Below are positions 50,942-56,463 of a DNA stretch of 64,000 nucleotides, in pieces. The number at the start of each line of letters is the position of its first letter. Position 1 is the first letter of the stretch. Source of the DNA: Rhodospirillales bacterium (GTDB lineage: Bacteria; Pseudomonadota; Alphaproteobacteria; ATCC43930; CGMCC-115725); contig CANJCB010000007.1 in assembly GCA_947473305.1 (NCBI GenBank), positions 62,001 through 126,000 of the forward strand, given 5' to 3'. The notes beneath the pieces are model-generated. The model saw nothing but the letters and a program-made list of their open reading frames with translations, searched no databases and had not been told where the DNA came from. Position numbers and translations under genes: made by a program.

Positions 50942-51310
50942 ATGAGAAGATTGGAGACAGCACTCAAGCTGGCGTGTCTCGCGCTGCCGCTGGCCGTCAC
51001 GGCAACCGCCCTTGCACGCGCTCCCACCGACCGCCCCCTCGACCCCTTCATCTCGTCCTGGTTCAAGGGCCTGAAAAACCCCAATCTCCTCTTCTATGGC
51101 GGCTATTGCTGCGACCAGTCGGACGGTCGCGTGCTGGCCGAGGACGAGTGGCGGACAACCGCCGAGGGATACGAGGTGCAGGTGGAAGGCGATTGGAAAC
51201 CGGTGCCGCCGAACGCGATCCTGTCCCAGACCGAAAATCCGACCGGCGGCGCCGTGGTCTTCTTCTATCGCAACCAGATTCTCTGTTTCGTGCGGCCCAG
51301 CGAGACCTAA
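50942..51310 (+). CDS. Small secreted protein with paired cysteines, unknown function
   Basis: This 122-residue protein starts at ATG 50942 (GGAGG nine bases upstream) with a signal peptide of about 26 residues ending at ALARA. The mature part has GGYCCDQSDGR, then EVQVEGDWKPVPPNAIL and QILCFVRPSE. This pattern of a CCD motif, a short 'valued' strand, a VPP strand and a late Cys occurs in many secreted proteins of Bradyrhizobium and relatives whose role is unknown. Its stop overlaps that of the convergent SRPBCC gene. Confidence 0.75.
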   Translation: MRRLETALKLACLALPLAVTATALARAPTDRPLDPFISSWFKGLKNPNLLFYGGYCCDQSDGRVLAEDEWRTTAEGYEVQVEGDWKPVPPNAILSQTENPTGGAVVFFYRNQILCFVRPSET

Positions 51311-52193: not shown

Positions 52194-52601
52194 CTATTTC
52201 TTCGGCTGGTTGAGGGCCCAGACCACCCCGAAGGGATCGCGGAGTTGGCCATAGTAGTCGCCCCAGAACATCTCCGCGACCGGCATGACGACTTCCAAGC
52301 CCGCCTCGGTCGCCCGCGTCCACCAGGCCTCGATATCCTCGACGCAGAGCGTCAGATTGTAGCCTTGCGGCTTCTGCAGCGGATGGCCCCATTCGGGATA
52401 AGCGTCGCCCAGCATCAGCGAGCTGCCGTTGACATAGAGATGGACATGCATGGTCCTCCCCTTCTCGTCCGGCGGGTGGGACACCGCGATCTCCGCCCCG
52501 AAGGCACGCTTATAGAAGTCCGCGGCCTTGATCGCGCCATCGACCTGAAGATAGGGAACGAGCCCGCCTTTGACCGGGGCCGTTGCAACCTTGTCGCTCA
52601 T
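52194..52601 (-). CDS. VOC-superfamily (glyoxalase/PhnB-like) protein
   Basis: This 135-residue protein has the PhnB-like start GGLVPYLQVDGAIKAADFYKRAFGAE, the metal-site strand MHVHLYVNGSSLMLGD and the end WGDYYGQLRDPFGVVWAL. PhnB-like VOC proteins lack known substrates and often lie in ECF sigma regulons. The ATG is preceded by GGAGGAAAGA. It is first in an operon with DoxX and SRPBCC and has an ECF-type promoter signature 51 bases upstream. Confidence 0.88.
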   Translation of the reverse strand: MSDKVATAPVKGGLVPYLQVDGAIKAADFYKRAFGAEIAVSHPPDEKGRTMHVHLYVNGSSLMLGDAYPEWGHPLQKPQGYNLTLCVEDIEAWWTRATEAGLEVVMPVAEMFWGDYYGQLRDPFGVVWALNQPKK

Positions 52602-52630
52602 TCTTTCCTCCAATTTTTTTACTGCCCCAG

Positions 52631-52657
52631 GACGGCCGGGCACCGGGCAAGCCGACA
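52631..52657 (-). promoter_or_regulatory. Candidate ECF sigma promoter of the VOC-DoxX-SRPBCC operon
   Basis: On the minus strand TGTCGG (52657-52652) and CGTC (52634-52631) are 17 bases apart. The VOC ATG is 30 bases downstream. The same pair with the same spacing precedes the DGPF/sigma genes and the 83-residue membrane protein gene. Confidence 0.55.
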
Positions 52658-52678
52658 GCCTTTCCGAAATTTTTTAGC

Positions 52679-53914
52679 TCAAGCCTCCGTCAACCGATCG
52701 AGATAACGGCGGATATGAGCCGCCTCGGCCGGGTTTCTCGCCAGCGAGATGGCCCGGTCGAAAGCGCTGCGCGCCTCTTCTTTCCGGCCCAATTGCAGGA
52801 GAAACGCGCCCTTCGCCCCGAAGAAATGGAAATAGCCGGAAAGCCGATCCGCCAGCGGTTCGATGAGTTGGAGCGCCGCCTCCGCGCCCGCGACCTTCCC
52901 CACCGCAACGGCGCGGTTGAGGGTCACGACCGGGGAGGGCTGCATCCGCTCCAGCGTCTGGTAGAGCGCGTCGATCCCCGCCCAGTCGGTTTCGGCGGGC
53001 GTCGCCGCCCGGGAGTGGAGCGCCGCGATAGCCGACTGGACCTGATAGGGTCCAGGTCGGCGATGCCGCAGCGCCTTGTCGATCAAGGCTAATCCCTCGG
53101 CGATCAGCTTGCCGTCCCAGAGAGCGCGATCCTGTTCCTCCAGCAGAACGATCTCCCCCTCCCCGTCGAAGCGGGCGCGGCTGCGGGAATGCTGGAGCAG
53201 CATGAGGGCGGTGAGCCCCATAATCTCGGGCTCGGCAGGAAAAAGCCGCAGCAGAAGCCGGGCGAGCCGGATCGCCTCACCGCACAGCGCGGCCCGGGCA
53301 GCCTCTTCTCCGCCCGAATAGCCCTCGTTGAAAACGAGATAGATCATCGCCGCGACGGCCGCGAGCCGTTCCGCCCGCTCCACGGCTCCGGGTGTCTCGA
53401 AGGGCAGGCCGGCCTTGCCGACCTTGGCCTTGGCGCGGGTGATGCGCTGCTCCATCGCCACTTCGCTCACCAGGAAGGCGCGTGCGATCTGCGTGACGCT
53501 CAAGCCTGAGACGATGCGCAGCGCCAGCGCGATCTGCTGGGTCGCGGGCAGATCTGGATGGCAGCACATGAAGAGCAACCGGAGCACGTCATCCCGGTAC
53601 TGCGACCCGTCGAGGCGGTCGGCGAGGCTCGCCTCCTCGTCCTCGAGATCCGAAAGCGCTTCTTCTTCCGGCAAGGGGGCTTCGCGGCTGCGGCGGCGGA
53701 CGCCGTCCAGGCCTGCGTTCCGACCTACCAGGATCAGCCAGGCCTGGGGATCGCGCGGCGGGCCGTTCTGCGGCCAGGTCTTCAGCGCCCGCAGGCAAGC
53801 CTCCTGGAAGGCTTCCTCGGCCATGTCGAGATCGCGGAAATAGCGCAGCAGCGCTCCCACCGCCTGGGGCCGGGCGGCGACCATCACCGCCTCGATCCAG
53901 GCGAGGTCGGTCAT
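52679..53914 (-). CDS. ECF sigma factor of the ECF42 type with long C-terminal extension
   Basis: The 411-residue protein is twice the length of a usual ECF sigma factor. Regions sigma2 (RYFRDLDMAEEAFQEACLRAL, PQAWLILVGRNAGLDGVRRR) and sigma4 (SVTQIARAFLVSEVAMEQRI) occupy residues 1-180. The rest is a helical TPR-like domain (FNEGYSGGEEAARAALCGEAIRL, SAIAALHSRAATPAETDW, LNRAVAVGKVAGAEAAL). ECF42 proteins have exactly this extension, no anti-sigma factor, and a DGPF-domain neighbour. Here the DGPF/YCII gene lies 1 base upstream, so the two are co-transcribed. The extension is thought to control activity in the group. Confidence 0.9.
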   Translation of the reverse strand: MTDLAWIEAVMVAARPQAVGALLRYFRDLDMAEEAFQEACLRALKTWPQNGPPRDPQAWLILVGRNAGLDGVRRRSREAPLPEEEALSDLEDEEASLADRLDGSQYRDDVLRLLFMCCHPDLPATQQIALALRIVSGLSVTQIARAFLVSEVAMEQRITRAKAKVGKAGLPFETPGAVERAERLAAVAAMIYLVFNEGYSGGEEAARAALCGEAIRLARLLLRLFPAEPEIMGLTALMLLQHSRSRARFDGEGEIVLLEEQDRALWDGKLIAEGLALIDKALRHRRPGPYQVQSAIAALHSRAATPAETDWAGIDALYQTLERMQPSPVVTLNRAVAVGKVAGAEAALQLIEPLADRLSGYFHFFGAKGAFLLQLGRKEEARSAFDRAISLARNPAEAAHIRRYLDRLTEA

Positions 53915-53915
53915 T

Positions 53916-54293
53916 TCAGGAAGCCTTGTCCCGCCGGTCGGGATTGAAGAGCGCGATGGGGCGAATCTCATAGGACCCGCCAGGATTGACCGCGCCGAGG
54001 TCGCGGGCGATCTCCAGAGCCTCTTCCAGGTCCTTCACGTCGATCACATAGAAGCCGAGCAATTGCTCCTTGGTCTCGGCGAAAGGTCCGTCGATGACGA
54101 GAGGCGGGTCCTGGTCCTTGCGCAGAGTGGTCGCCGCCGTCGTCGGCAGCAGGCGCAGGGACGGGCCCATCTTGCCCGCCTTGACCAGCCGCTCCTGGAC
54201 CGCGCCAAGCTTCGCCATGACTGCCGCATCCTCCTCCTTGCTCCAGGACCAGACAGCGTCTTCATCGTTGTAGCAGAGGATGGCATAGAGCAT
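53916..54293 (-). CDS. YCII/DGPF-domain protein paired with the ECF sigma factor
   Basis: This 125-residue ferredoxin-like fold protein has the DGPF signature in VIDGPFAETKEQLLGFYVID and the end YEIRPIALFN. DGPF proteins are the standard partners of ECF42 sigma factors; whether they sense, are targets of, or help the sigma factor is not settled. The start at 54293 (MLYAIL) is chosen over an upstream ATG at 54317. A promoter-like pair lies 26-52 bases upstream. Confidence 0.9.
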   Translation of the reverse strand: MLYAILCYNDEDAVWSWSKEEDAAVMAKLGAVQERLVKAGKMGPSLRLLPTTAATTLRKDQDPPLVIDGPFAETKEQLLGFYVIDVKDLEEALEIARDLGAVNPGGSYEIRPIALFNPDRRDKAS

Positions 54294-54318
54294 CGGGCGC
54301 GTTCTCCTTCCCCCCAAG

Positions 54319-54345
54319 GACGCGCGAGGATGCGCCGATCCGACA
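54319..54345 (-). promoter_or_regulatory. Candidate ECF sigma promoter of the DGPF-sigma operon
   Basis: On the minus strand TGTCGG (54345-54340) and CGTC (54322-54319) are 17 bases apart, with the DGPF gene ATG 26 bases downstream. The elements resemble the TGTCGA / CGTC-type promoters described for ECF42 sigma factors, so the sigma factor would control its own gene. Confidence 0.6.
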
Positions 54346-54391
54346 AGAGGCCCGGCGAAAAATGCGCAAGACCGCTGAGGCCGGTCAAGCT

Positions 54392-54418
54392 TGTCCCCAC
54401 GAGGAATCGCACCACGTC
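54392..54418 (+). promoter_or_regulatory. Candidate ECF sigma promoter of the 83-residue membrane protein gene
   Basis: TGTCCC (54392-54397) and CGTC (54415-54418) are 17 bases apart on the plus strand, 41 bases before the ATG at 54460. The third copy of the signature in this cluster, it is divergent to the DGPF promoter 47 bases away. Confidence 0.5.
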
Positions 54419-54459
54419 CTTATCATCCGAGCGTTAGCCTCGGGCGAGAGGAGCACATC

Positions 54460-54711
54460 ATGCCGTGGTTCAAGGCGCGCGATTATGGCTGGGGCTGGGT
54501 CCCGGTCACCCTGGAAGGCTGGGTCGCGGTCGGCCTCTTCGTTGTGGCCGTGACCTCGACGATTATCTATTTCATGTATCGGGTCCGCACCGGCCTCGAC
54601 GGACGACGGGCGACCTTCTACGGCGCGATCTGGATCGTCGTCTGGATCGCACTGCTGGTCGCCGTCGCTTGGATGACGGGCGAGCCGCCCCGCTGGCGCT
54701 GGGGCGGCTGA
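54460..54711 (+). CDS. Small membrane protein with two helices, unknown
   Basis: This 83-residue protein starts at ATG 54460 with GAGAGGAG seven bases upstream. After an aromatic N-terminus (MPWFKARDYGWGWVP) there are two transmembrane helices (about residues 19-38 and 52-71) joined by a short basic loop, and the end is MTGEPPRWRWGG. I know of similar short proteins but no assigned function. It is divergent from the DGPF-sigma operon and has the same promoter-like signature, so it may be a target of that sigma factor. Confidence 0.7.
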   Translation: MPWFKARDYGWGWVPVTLEGWVAVGLFVVAVTSTIIYFMYRVRTGLDGRRATFYGAIWIVVWIALLVAVAWMTGEPPRWRWGG

Positions 54712-54720
54712 GCCCTGAGC

Positions 54721-54981
54721 CTATTCCCGCCAGAAGCCCTTGGTGCATTCCCGCCAGACGTCCAGCGAGTTGAGCCCGATGTCCCTGAGCTGAAGCTCGG
54801 TCAGTTCGGCCAGGACCCAGCGATCCCGTTTCCGCCGCAGCCACAGGAGCGGGAGCGCGAGGAAGCGACCCACGACGCCCAGACGTTTATCGACCGACGC
54901 CGCGTTCCGAAACTGACGAGAGGCGAAGTCCTCGGCCCCGTTCTGGATTTCAGCAATGGCGGCGGTAATCTGGCGTGTCAT
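54721..54981 (-). CDS. DUF1127-domain protein
   Basis: The 86-residue protein ends in a DUF1127 domain (about residues 40-75: LPLLWLRRKRDRWVLAELTELQLRDIGL), an arginine-rich helix pair common in alphaproteobacteria. Some small DUF1127 proteins affect phosphate or RNA metabolism and colony traits. It faces the MocR regulator across 120 bases that hold two inverted repeats with CCGAG/CTCGG arms. Confidence 0.85.
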   Translation of the reverse strand: MTRQITAAIAEIQNGAEDFASRQFRNAASVDKRLGVVGRFLALPLLWLRRKRDRWVLAELTELQLRDIGLNSLDVWRECTKGFWRE

Positions 54982-55001: not shown

Positions 55002-55027
55002 ACCGAGACGCCCTTTCCTGTCTCGGT
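55002..55027. promoter_or_regulatory. Inverted repeat ACCGAGAC-N10-GTCTCGGT
   Basis: Two exact 8-base arms flank a 10-base spacer, 20 bases before the DUF1127 start and 75 bases before the MocR gene. The arms share CCGAG/CTCGG with the second repeat at 55069-55095. It is a likely binding site for a dimeric regulator. Confidence 0.5.
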
Positions 55028-55068
55028 GCAATTTGCTTGCGACCCGAATTTTAATGCCCCATATTGTA

Positions 55069-55095
55069 CCGAGTCAATCGCAACATTGATCTCGG
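55069..55095. promoter_or_regulatory. Inverted repeat at the MocR gene start
   Basis: CCGAGTCAAT (55069-55078) and ATTGATCTCGG (55085-55095) pair with one unpaired base across a 6-base spacer. It ends 6 bases before the regulator ATG, so binding would block expression. Autoregulation is inferred. Confidence 0.5.
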
Positions 55096-55101
55096 AGCAA
55101 T

Positions 55102-56463
55102 ATGATCACACCGGATTACGCGAAGCTCGCCGATGCTCTTGCGGCCGATATCGCCGCGGGCCGCCTGAAACCCGGCGATCGCCTGCCGCCCCAGCGCAGC
55201 TTCGCCTATGAGCGCGGCATCGCCGTCTCCACCGCGAGCCGCGTCTATGGCGAACTTTATCGGCGCGGTCTGGTGGTCGGAGAGGTGGGGCGCGGCACCT
55301 TCATCGCGGGCAACGCGCTTCTGGCGGAAACACGCCGTCCGGATCCGCCATCGCTCTCTTCAGAACCCGCGGGCCGCATCGACCTCGAAGTCAATTTCCC
55401 CATGCTCGCGGATCAGGGCGAGGCGATTGCCCGGAGCCTTCAGCCCCTCATGACCGGCGAGGGCCTCACCGACGCTCTCCGCGCCGCGCCCTTCGCGGGA
55501 ACGGCCGCCGTCCGCGCAGCCGCATCCCGGGGCCTCTCGCGCGGCGGCTGGACACCCTCCCCCGACAGCTTTCTTTTCACGGGCGCCGGGCGGCAGGCCA
55601 TCGGAGCCGCCCTGAGCGCGCTCGTGCCCATCGGCGGCCGGATCGGCGTCGAGGCCGTCACCTATCCCCAGATCAAGAGCCTGGCGGTGCGGCTCGGGGC
55701 CACGCTGGTCCCGCTCGCCATGGACGAGGAAGGCGTGCGGCCGGACGCCATCGCGAAGGCCCATCGCGACAGTCCGCTCCAGGCACTCTACATCCAGCCA
55801 GCCCTGCATAATCCGCTGGGAACGACCTTCTCCCCGGCCCGCCGGGAAGCGATCGCCGAGCTTGCGGAGCGGCTCGACCTCACGCTCATCGAGGATTGGA
55901 TCTATGGCTTCCTCTGCGACGACCCACCGCTGGCGGCGCTCATCCCCCATCGCTCCATCGTGGTGGACAGCCTCTCCAAGAGGATCGCGCCGGGCCTGGG
56001 CCTCGGCTTCCTCAATGCCCCAGCCCACCTCCACGAAGCGCTGAAAGCGGGCATTCGGGCGGGGGGCTGGTCTGCCACCGGTTTGGGACTGGCTGCCGGA
56101 CAACGGCTCTTCGAAGACGGCACCGCCGCCGCCCTCGCCCTCCGGAAACGCGAAGATGCGGTCCGCCGCCAAAGCCTCGCCGCGCGCTGCTTCAAGAGCT
56201 TCGATCTTGCCGCCGATCCCCGCGCCTATCATCTCTGGCTGACCCTGCCGGATCGCTGGCGCTCCGAGGCCTTCGCCGCCGCCGCAAGCCGCCAGGGGAT
56301 CGCATTGAGCCCATCCAGCGCCTTCACTGTCGGCCAAGGCCACGCGCCCAATGCGGTGCGGCTGGCGCTCGCCTCGCCCTCGCTCCCTCAACTCGAACGG
56401 GCCTTGGAGACGCTGGCCGGGCTTCTGAGATCGGAGCCCGAGGCTTTCCAGGTGACGGAGTAA
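55102..56463 (+). CDS. MocR/PdxR-type regulator (GntR helix-turn-helix fused to aminotransferase domain)
   Basis: This 453-residue protein has an N-terminal winged helix (LADALAADIAAGRLKPGDRLPPQRSFAYERGIAVSTASRVYGEL, about residues 5-65) and a fold-type I aminotransferase domain. The PLP lysine lies in VVDSLSKRIAPGLGLGF, and the upstream EDWIYGFLCDDPP matches the Asp/Tyr region of the family. MocR regulators bind PLP and control vitamin B6, GABA, taurine or amino acid genes. No such gene is adjacent; nearby targets may be the DUF1127 gene and itself. Confidence 0.92.
   Translation: MITPDYAKLADALAADIAAGRLKPGDRLPPQRSFAYERGIAVSTASRVYGELYRRGLVVGEVGRGTFIAGNALLAETRRPDPPSLSSEPAGRIDLEVNFPMLADQGEAIARSLQPLMTGEGLTDALRAAPFAGTAAVRAAASRGLSRGGWTPSPDSFLFTGAGRQAIGAALSALVPIGGRIGVEAVTYPQIKSLAVRLGATLVPLAMDEEGVRPDAIAKAHRDSPLQALYIQPALHNPLGTTFSPARREAIAELAERLDLTLIEDWIYGFLCDDPPLAALIPHRSIVVDSLSKRIAPGLGLGFLNAPAHLHEALKAGIRAGGWSATGLGLAAGQRLFEDGTAAALALRKREDAVRRQSLAARCFKSFDLAADPRAYHLWLTLPDRWRSEAFAAAASRQGIALSPSSAFTVGQGHAPNAVRLALASPSLPQLERALETLAGLLRSEPEAFQVTE

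Follow-up and report, generated by a model that had tools for sequence, protein, structure and literature searches.

A TGTCGG-N17-CGTC promoter probably joins an ECF42 sigma factor operon and a VOC-DoxX-SRPBCC operon of a Rhodospirillales bacterium in one regulon

Which of its neighbours does an extracytoplasmic function (ECF) sigma factor control, when three transcription units around its gene begin with similar promoter-like strings? The question is raised by a stretch of 64,000 nucleotides from a Rhodospirillales bacterium (assembly GCA_947473305.1, contig CANJCB010000007.1, positions 62,001 to 126,000; hereafter the window, with positions counted from its first base). Here a YCII (DGPF) gene and the gene of a 411-residue sigma factor are followed by a VOC-DoxX-SRPBCC operon and flanked by a divergent gene for an 83-residue membrane protein (Table 1). 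An earlier note, made from the letters alone, had placed all three units under the sigma factor. Our analysis indicates that the sigma factor, a member of the ECF42 group, very probably drives the YCII-sigma and VOC-DoxX-SRPBCC units through TGTCGG-N17-CGTC promoters, with the membrane protein gene probably outside the regulon.

Table 1. Positions of the genes and promoter elements discussed, in window coordinates
Feature	Position	Strand	Remarks
SRPBCC (AHSA1) protein gene, 156 aa	51307..51777	-	PF08327, E 7.4e-32
DoxX-like membrane protein gene, 128 aa	51799..52185	-	PF13564, E 6.2e-20
VOC (glyoxalase-fold) protein gene, 135 aa	52194..52601	-	PF00903, E 4e-17
ECF42 promoter core TGTCGG-N17-CGTC (then CTGGG), VOC-DoxX-SRPBCC operon	52631..52657	-	29 bases before ATG at 52601; matrix 37.0
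A/T-rich tract, VOC promoter	52667..52675	-	10-18 bases upstream of TGTCGG; starts 3 bases past sigma stop codon
ECF42 sigma factor gene, 411 aa	52679..53914	-	region 2, region 4, DUF6596, TPR-like tail
YCII (DGPF) protein gene, 125 aa	53916..54293	-	PF03795, E 6.5e-24
ECF42 promoter core TGTCGG-N17-CGTC (then CTTGG), YCII-sigma operon	54319..54345	-	25 bases before ATG at 54293; matrix 33.3
A/T-rich tract, YCII-sigma promoter	54355..54363	-	10-18 bases upstream of TGTCGG; A/T conserved at -18 to -10 in relatives' logos
Candidate third site TGTCCC-N17-CGTC	54392..54418	+	41 bases before ATG at 54460; probably not an ECF42 promoter
Membrane protein gene, 83 residues	54460..54711	+	divergent from YCII-sigma operon; outside assigned regulon

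The identification of the 411-residue protein as an ECF42 sigma factor, made in the earlier note, is strongly supported by its predicted domains, its YCII neighbour and the promoter of its own operon. Its sigma core consists of region 2 (PF04542, E 8.5e-11) and region 4 (PF08281, E 1.4e-9) only, and DUF6596 is matched above the Pfam cut-off (E 2.7e-35). Together with DUF6596, an AlphaFold model (mean pLDDT, the predicted local distance difference test score, 77.9; helical to the C-terminus) points to a TPR-rich C-terminal extension of about 200 residues. When the model was searched against the PDB, TPR superhelices came out best and ECF sigma chains lower in the list, all matches being weak, the best having E 1.1e-3 and none reaching 0.001. 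The PF03795 gene lies directly upstream of the sigma gene, and the operon begins with a string of the TGTCG(A/G)-N17-CGTC form. Among eight neighbours of the sigma gene scanned with Pfam, no anti-sigma family was found, though three of the eight match no Pfam family. Since a single base separates the YCII stop codon from the sigma ATG, translation of the two genes is probably coupled.

All three strings noticed earlier exist where they had been placed, on the same strands and each with exactly 17 intervening bases. Their distance from the ATG, put at 26-41 bases, agrees with our measurements for the VOC (29) and membrane protein (41) genes, while the YCII site lies at 25. The pooled form TGTC(G/C)(G/C) masks a difference, however, in that both sigma-linked operons carry TGTCGG and the third site TGTCCC. 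Counts in the window and the genome by themselves prove little. In the window, TGTCSS-N17-CGTC occurs 3 times against 0.86 expected (reached in 4 of 100 shuffles) and TGTCGG-N17-CGTC twice against 0.23 (1 of 100). A genome scan for TGTCSS-N16-18-CGTC, proposed in the earlier note, did return more sites than the reversed control (216 against 131), but the pattern proved too loose to use. What decides is position, the longer motif and conservation, and by these the VOC and YCII sites stand well clear of chance.

Conservation was assessed in 87 ECF42 loci (80 named loci and seven of the family, L111-L117, with L111 the window's own), amounting to 1,024,705 bases. TGTCGG-N17-CGTC occurs 161 times in them, and spacings of 15, 16, 18 and 19 bases give 11, 6, 13 and 14 occurrences; at N17, the variants TGTCGA, TGTCGC, TGTCGT and TGTCCC are found 4, 3, 1 and 2 times. 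The comparison of homologous clusters that had been suggested earlier bears the idea out for two of the three units: 145 of the 161 sites precede YCII (74), VOC (36), SRPBCC (32) or DoxX (3) genes. The 16 unassigned sites include ones before SnoaL-like genes (L094, L105) and a glutathione-transferase gene (L099). We assign the VOC-DoxX-SRPBCC operon to the regulon on the 71 sites before VOC, SRPBCC or DoxX genes together with the matrix score of its own site. A looser match, TGTC-N18-20-CG(A/T)C, was present in 74 of 86 readable YCII leaders (L098, with a leader of 33 bases, was excluded), mostly about 50 bases upstream of the start. A record titled Mycobacterium sp. KBS0706 (L105) holds a sigma factor 77% identical to that of the window; the other relatives are alphaproteobacterial, and the name may be wrong.

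In sequence logos of the relatives, a tract of A/T lies 10-18 bases before TGTCGG, and CGTC is followed by either CT or TT, CTTGG being strongest at VOC/SRPBCC genes. The CTNGG part of the longer motif was taken from these logos, each of which includes one window site (1 of 60 and 1 of 58); L115, being the same locus as L103, was omitted from logo and spacer counts, yet both are counted in the 161. The tract is placed like an UP element, a role that we infer from its position; in the YCII-sigma promoter of the window, A/T is confined to the first six bases of the tract.

A matrix of 55 positions was trained on 111 non-redundant sites drawn from 86 loci, the window excluded, and 127,890 window positions were scored. 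The VOC and YCII sites obtained 37.0 and 33.3, and the next best position -2.2; the training sites had a minimum of 14.6, a 5% point of 25.1 and a median of 36.7.

Because TGTCGG-N17-CGTC is too weak a signal genome-wide, the longer motif was needed there. TGTCGG-N17-CGTCCTNGG has four exact matches in the 4.7 Mb genome, each standing before a YCII, YCII-like or VOC gene. Besides the window VOC and YCII sites, one lies on contig C16 before a VOC gene that has a second VOC-type gene behind it, and one on C25 before a YCII-like gene (PF03795 E 0.0012, below cut-off) followed by an SRPBCC gene. Allowing one mismatch added two matches, both inside long open frames (reversed control, 1). A fifth site and additional regulon member is probable at C25 27495-27521 (minus strand), where a sequence scoring 25.2 precedes an orphan YCII gene (L163 3080-3448) with no ECF42 gene found alongside.

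The longer motif also follows the sigma factor across genomes. Of 240 sampled genomes of the class, 17 have a sigma factor in the window's clade (type A), 13 of them recognized by a tree row and G181, G188, G226 and G051, whose rows had been dropped as near-copies, by identity (77, 76, 73 and 56%); as no genome had more than seven first-look candidates scored, and only E values up to 1e-30 were listed, sigma genes may be missed. TGTCGG-N17-CGTCCTNGG was present in 16 of the 17 against 5 of the 223 others, and the reversed control gave 6 matches in the 240 genomes, none of them within the 17. The genomes are phylogenetically non-independent, so that Fisher values are indicative only.

By manual sorting, 17 of the 34 longer-motif sites in the type-A genomes, across 10 of the 17 genomes, are distant from the sigma gene, although one in G051 is just about 6 kb away. 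Two of these far sites belong to the genome of the window, and 11 of the other 15 (ten loci, one with two sites) were examined. Ten that we scanned precede DUF1428 (2), 3-dmu-9_3-mt, RibD_C, abhydrolase, AHSA1, Polyketide_cyc2, YCII, TfoX_N and DoxX genes, the AHSA1 match (L250) coming from a second frame, as the first choice overlapped the site; the eleventh (L261) has, by eye, an MFS transporter-like gene downstream. The far sites of L248, L257 and L274 lack a clear A/T tract. In a genome outside the 17, the site at L262 precedes a gene that looks, by eye, like SRPBCC.

The three-unit claim therefore has to be divided. It stands for the YCII-sigma and VOC-DoxX-SRPBCC units, whose high-scoring sites are conserved, and not for the membrane protein gene, where TGTCCC, a matrix score of -5.5 and a missing A/T tract set the site apart. 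A regulon that took in this gene through a degenerate TGTCCC-N17-CGTCCTTAT promoter would explain the exact 17-base spacing, the CGTCCT downstream and the divergent position beside the sigma operon, and for the core alone only four window positions are as good, the site itself included. Against it, 15 of the scored positions do at least as well over the full matrix, TGTCGG occurs in 107 of the 111 non-redundant comparison sites and TGTCCC in none, and TGTCCC-N17-CGTC was found merely twice in the 1.02 Mb of ECF42 loci, one of these presumably being the third site itself. The gene is also rare: with the own genome counted each time, a relative was found in 2 of the order's 43 genomes and in 4 of the 385 from the class. 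None was found in other ECF42 loci (110 loci, flanks of 1.5-6 kb), and the four readable leaders of these relatives hold no ECF42 motif (a fifth, L155, has an unreadable leader). We regard the three-unit regulon as very improbable; from the sequence comparison, 54392..54418 is probably not an ECF42 promoter. Searched at E 0.001, the membrane protein matches nothing in Pfam or NCBIfam, and no convincing promoter of another type was found for its gene. As a candidate regulon member or anti-sigma factor it was rejected, being the product of a rare gene that was not found in the other ECF42 loci searched and whose relatives, where readable, have motif-free leaders.

The two remaining units could also be read as a single long one, transcribed from the YCII promoter through sigma, VOC, DoxX and SRPBCC, with the VOC site as an internal booster. 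The genes share one strand, the gap from the sigma stop to the VOC ATG is 77 bases, and no terminator-like site was found in it. In relatives, however, the VOC/SRPBCC units often stand on the opposite strand or kilobases away and retain the motif, and because of this the VOC site looks like an independent promoter; we find the long unit rather unlikely. In a further reading, the YCII-sigma motif is little used by the sigma factor, and basal transcription is left to a housekeeping promoter, perhaps an overlapping one. In Sinorhizobium meliloti, according to the accessible part of the report on its ECF42 factor RpoE10, the mapped start of the SMc01151 (YCII)-rpoE10 operon overlaps the motif, and overexpression of RpoE10 did not raise the operon (PMC6180224). 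Among 60 non-redundant YCII leaders (loci L031-L117), positions 15-18 of the spacer read TAnT in 27, possibly as an overlapping housekeeping -10 element, against 0 of 58 VOC/SRPBCC/DoxX leaders; TTG occupies -11 to -9 in 12 of the 60 and in 2 of the 58, and 7 of the 60 have both elements. The window has one sigma-70-like minus-strand site (54482-54509), which lies some 190 bases before the YCII ATG; 0.3 are expected. On the other hand, TGTCGG and CGTC are conserved in most YCII leaders, the window spacer reads CATCCT with TTG missing, and a simple scan revealed no sigma-70-like site overlapping the ECF42 site. Such a housekeeping promoter is, in our estimate, an unlikely explanation. Autoregulation of YCII-sigma is the weaker and less certain half of the two-unit regulon, since SMc01151-rpoE10 did not rise with RpoE10 in the published experiment.

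To the idea that the strings are common GC-rich words met by chance we give next to no credence. The loose motif is indeed near expectation in the window, where 4 occurrences compare with 2.77 expected and 26 of 100 shuffles attain that number, and over the whole genome the strict form TGTCGG-N17-CGTC scarcely exceeds its reversed control (13 against 9); 8 of the 13 sites, in our judgement, fall inside long open frames or have no convincing start shortly downstream. At two of the three sites, though, chance is contradicted by the longer motif, by where the sites lie, by their matrix scores and by the motif's co-occurrence with the sigma factor. Besides the genome count and the unresponsive S. 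meliloti operon, several further points weigh against the regulon that we propose. The 87 loci are related (many are from Rhizobiaceae) and include the window's own and the pair L103/L115 with an identical leader, which makes them non-independent; 12 of the 86 readable YCII leaders have no TGTC-N18-20-CG(A/T)C match; one type-A genome, G195, lacks TGTCGG-N17-CGTCCTNGG; and five genomes without the sigma type carry it once each, at about the level of the reversed control. The TPR_8, TPR_1 and TPR_2 models of Pfam match the sigma tail below their cut-offs in every case. Finally, the evidence consists of sequence comparison and one published experiment in another species. On balance, a regulon shared by the YCII-sigma and VOC-DoxX-SRPBCC operons remains strongly supported by comparison with relatives and by analogy with S. 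meliloti.

A signal reaching the TPR-like tail of the sigma factor would let RNA polymerase bearing it initiate at promoters composed of an A/T tract, TGTCGG, N17 and CGTCCTTGG. In the window these would serve the YCII-sigma unit, giving autoregulation, and the VOC-DoxX-SRPBCC unit; elsewhere in the genome they would serve the two VOC-type genes on C16, the YCII-like and SRPBCC genes on C25 and, probably as a third outside unit, the orphan YCII gene on C25. The output may consist of small ligand-binding or detoxification-type proteins together with the DoxX membrane protein. According to the accessible parts of reviews, no ligand of the ECF42 tail is known. The longer motif singles out genes that may be targets, and its near confinement, among the 240 sampled genomes of the class, to those with this sigma type yields a short, testable list.

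The genome holds a second ECF42 factor, on contig C32 (G000:C32:33398-34555, L164), which is 39% identical to that of the window and whose YCII leader reads TGTCGA-N17-CGTCAT. The TGTCGA-type promoter named in the earlier note for the group thus exists in this genome, at the other paralogue rather than at the window operons. TGTCGA-N17-CGTC has five sites in the genome (control, 6), and only the one at the C32 YCII gene lies close before a gene start; the C32 factor would probably serve its own YCII-sigma operon alone.

On a quickly built tree of 87 ECF42 factors, 3 changes at the sixth -35 base account for the 66 labelled rows (G in 37, A in 28, C in 1); with unlabelled rows taken as not G, the G label needs 7 rather than 3. 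The alignment retained 152 rows after those with under 330 aligned residues, duplicates and stop-containing sequences had been dropped; three near a contig end were then removed, and 87 kept under 78% identity, 21 of them unlabelled. L126, labelled C from an earlier leader match, also has TGTCGA-N17-CGTCAT. One clade of 40 comprises 35 G, 5 unlabelled and no A, and a separate pair, L122 and L237, is also G. The sixth base may thus track sigma ancestry, possibly a new observation; a literature search that did not extend to key subscription papers returned no description of a G/A split by sigma subgroup. At residue 155, in the recognition helix, all 35 rows of the main TGTCGG clade have E, and all 28 TGTCGA rows have A, G, S or T. 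As sole determinant of the -35 preference, Glu155 was rejected, because L122 and L237, independent TGTCGG cases, carry I and T, and it is kept as a lead only. In other ECF42 branches, the leaders of L187, L190, L189, L213 and L191 combine TGTCGA or TGTCGT with CGTC or CGAC, and further promoter subtypes seem to exist.

These patterns suggest two insulated ECF42 circuits in the genome. The matrix failed as a test of insulation: it gives the C32 TGTCGA site 23.6, just below the 5% point of the training sites, and does not separate the two types, so that the case is carried by the G/A split and the placement of the sites. In its wider form the proposal holds that two such circuits exist here and in other members of the class, told apart mainly by the sixth -35 base (TGTCGG or TGTCGA) and the bases after CGTC (CCTTGG vs CAT), the Glu155-marked TGTCGG branch commanding scattered, genome-specific genes (VOC, SRPBCC, YCII, DoxX, DUF1428, RibD_C, TfoX) and the TGTCGA branch mainly its own operon. 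We put this forward tentatively; the matrix score of the paralogue's site brought our estimate from an even chance to slightly less than even. With two such paralogues in one cell, the sixth-base difference would make it simple to test how sigma region 4 tells near-identical promoters apart.

Other features of the window were recorded in passing. Convergent with the SRPBCC gene is a gene for a 122-residue protein (50942-51310) with, by eye, a signal-peptide-like start; no Pfam family matched it. At 55022-55101, CTCGG(T/A)(G/A)CAAT occurs three times (two plus, one minus; 0.30 expected, 3 reached in 1 of 100 shuffles), between a small minus-strand gene (54721-54981) and a divergent GntR/aminotransferase (MocR-type) regulator gene (55102-56463), whose operator the copies likely form.

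Among known systems, the ECF42 factors of Streptomyces venezuelae studied by Liu et al. 2018 are said to use a TGTCGA-type promoter and to target a DGPF gene, which differs from the window. In the accessible text on Streptomyces venezuelae, Sven_0747, Sven_7131 and Sven_4377 are likewise ECF sigma factors with a TPR-rich tail and a conserved YCII-domain neighbour; the tail is described as essential for ECF42 activity, and the YCII protein is suggested to take part in control (PMC8999054). Pseudomonas putida ECF-10 (Tettmann et al. 2014) is also an ECF42 factor in a similar gene context, but is described, in what is accessible of the reports citing it, through mutant phenotypes (antibiotic and oxidative stress, biofilm) rather than a mapped promoter set (PMC6180224, PMC8999054). 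The closest likeness is to S. meliloti RpoE10, for which the following holds in the accessible part of the report (PMC6180224). Again a YCII gene is followed by the sigma gene, and TGTCGG-N17-CGTC stands at YCII, hydrophobic-ligand-domain and glyoxalase-like genes; the three listed promoters contain it, with a spacing that we checked. Overexpression raised six genes, SMc01149-SMc01148 and SMb20475-SMb20474 by two-fold or more, and the products include two glyoxalase-like proteins and one hydrophobic-ligand-domain protein, which we read as SRPBCC-type. Unlike here, that text leaves DoxX unmentioned and lists a single ECF42, and the YCII-sigma operon was unresponsive. An ECF42 regulon with such promoters and targets is thus already known in S. 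meliloti, and the window, by analogy, adds another case.

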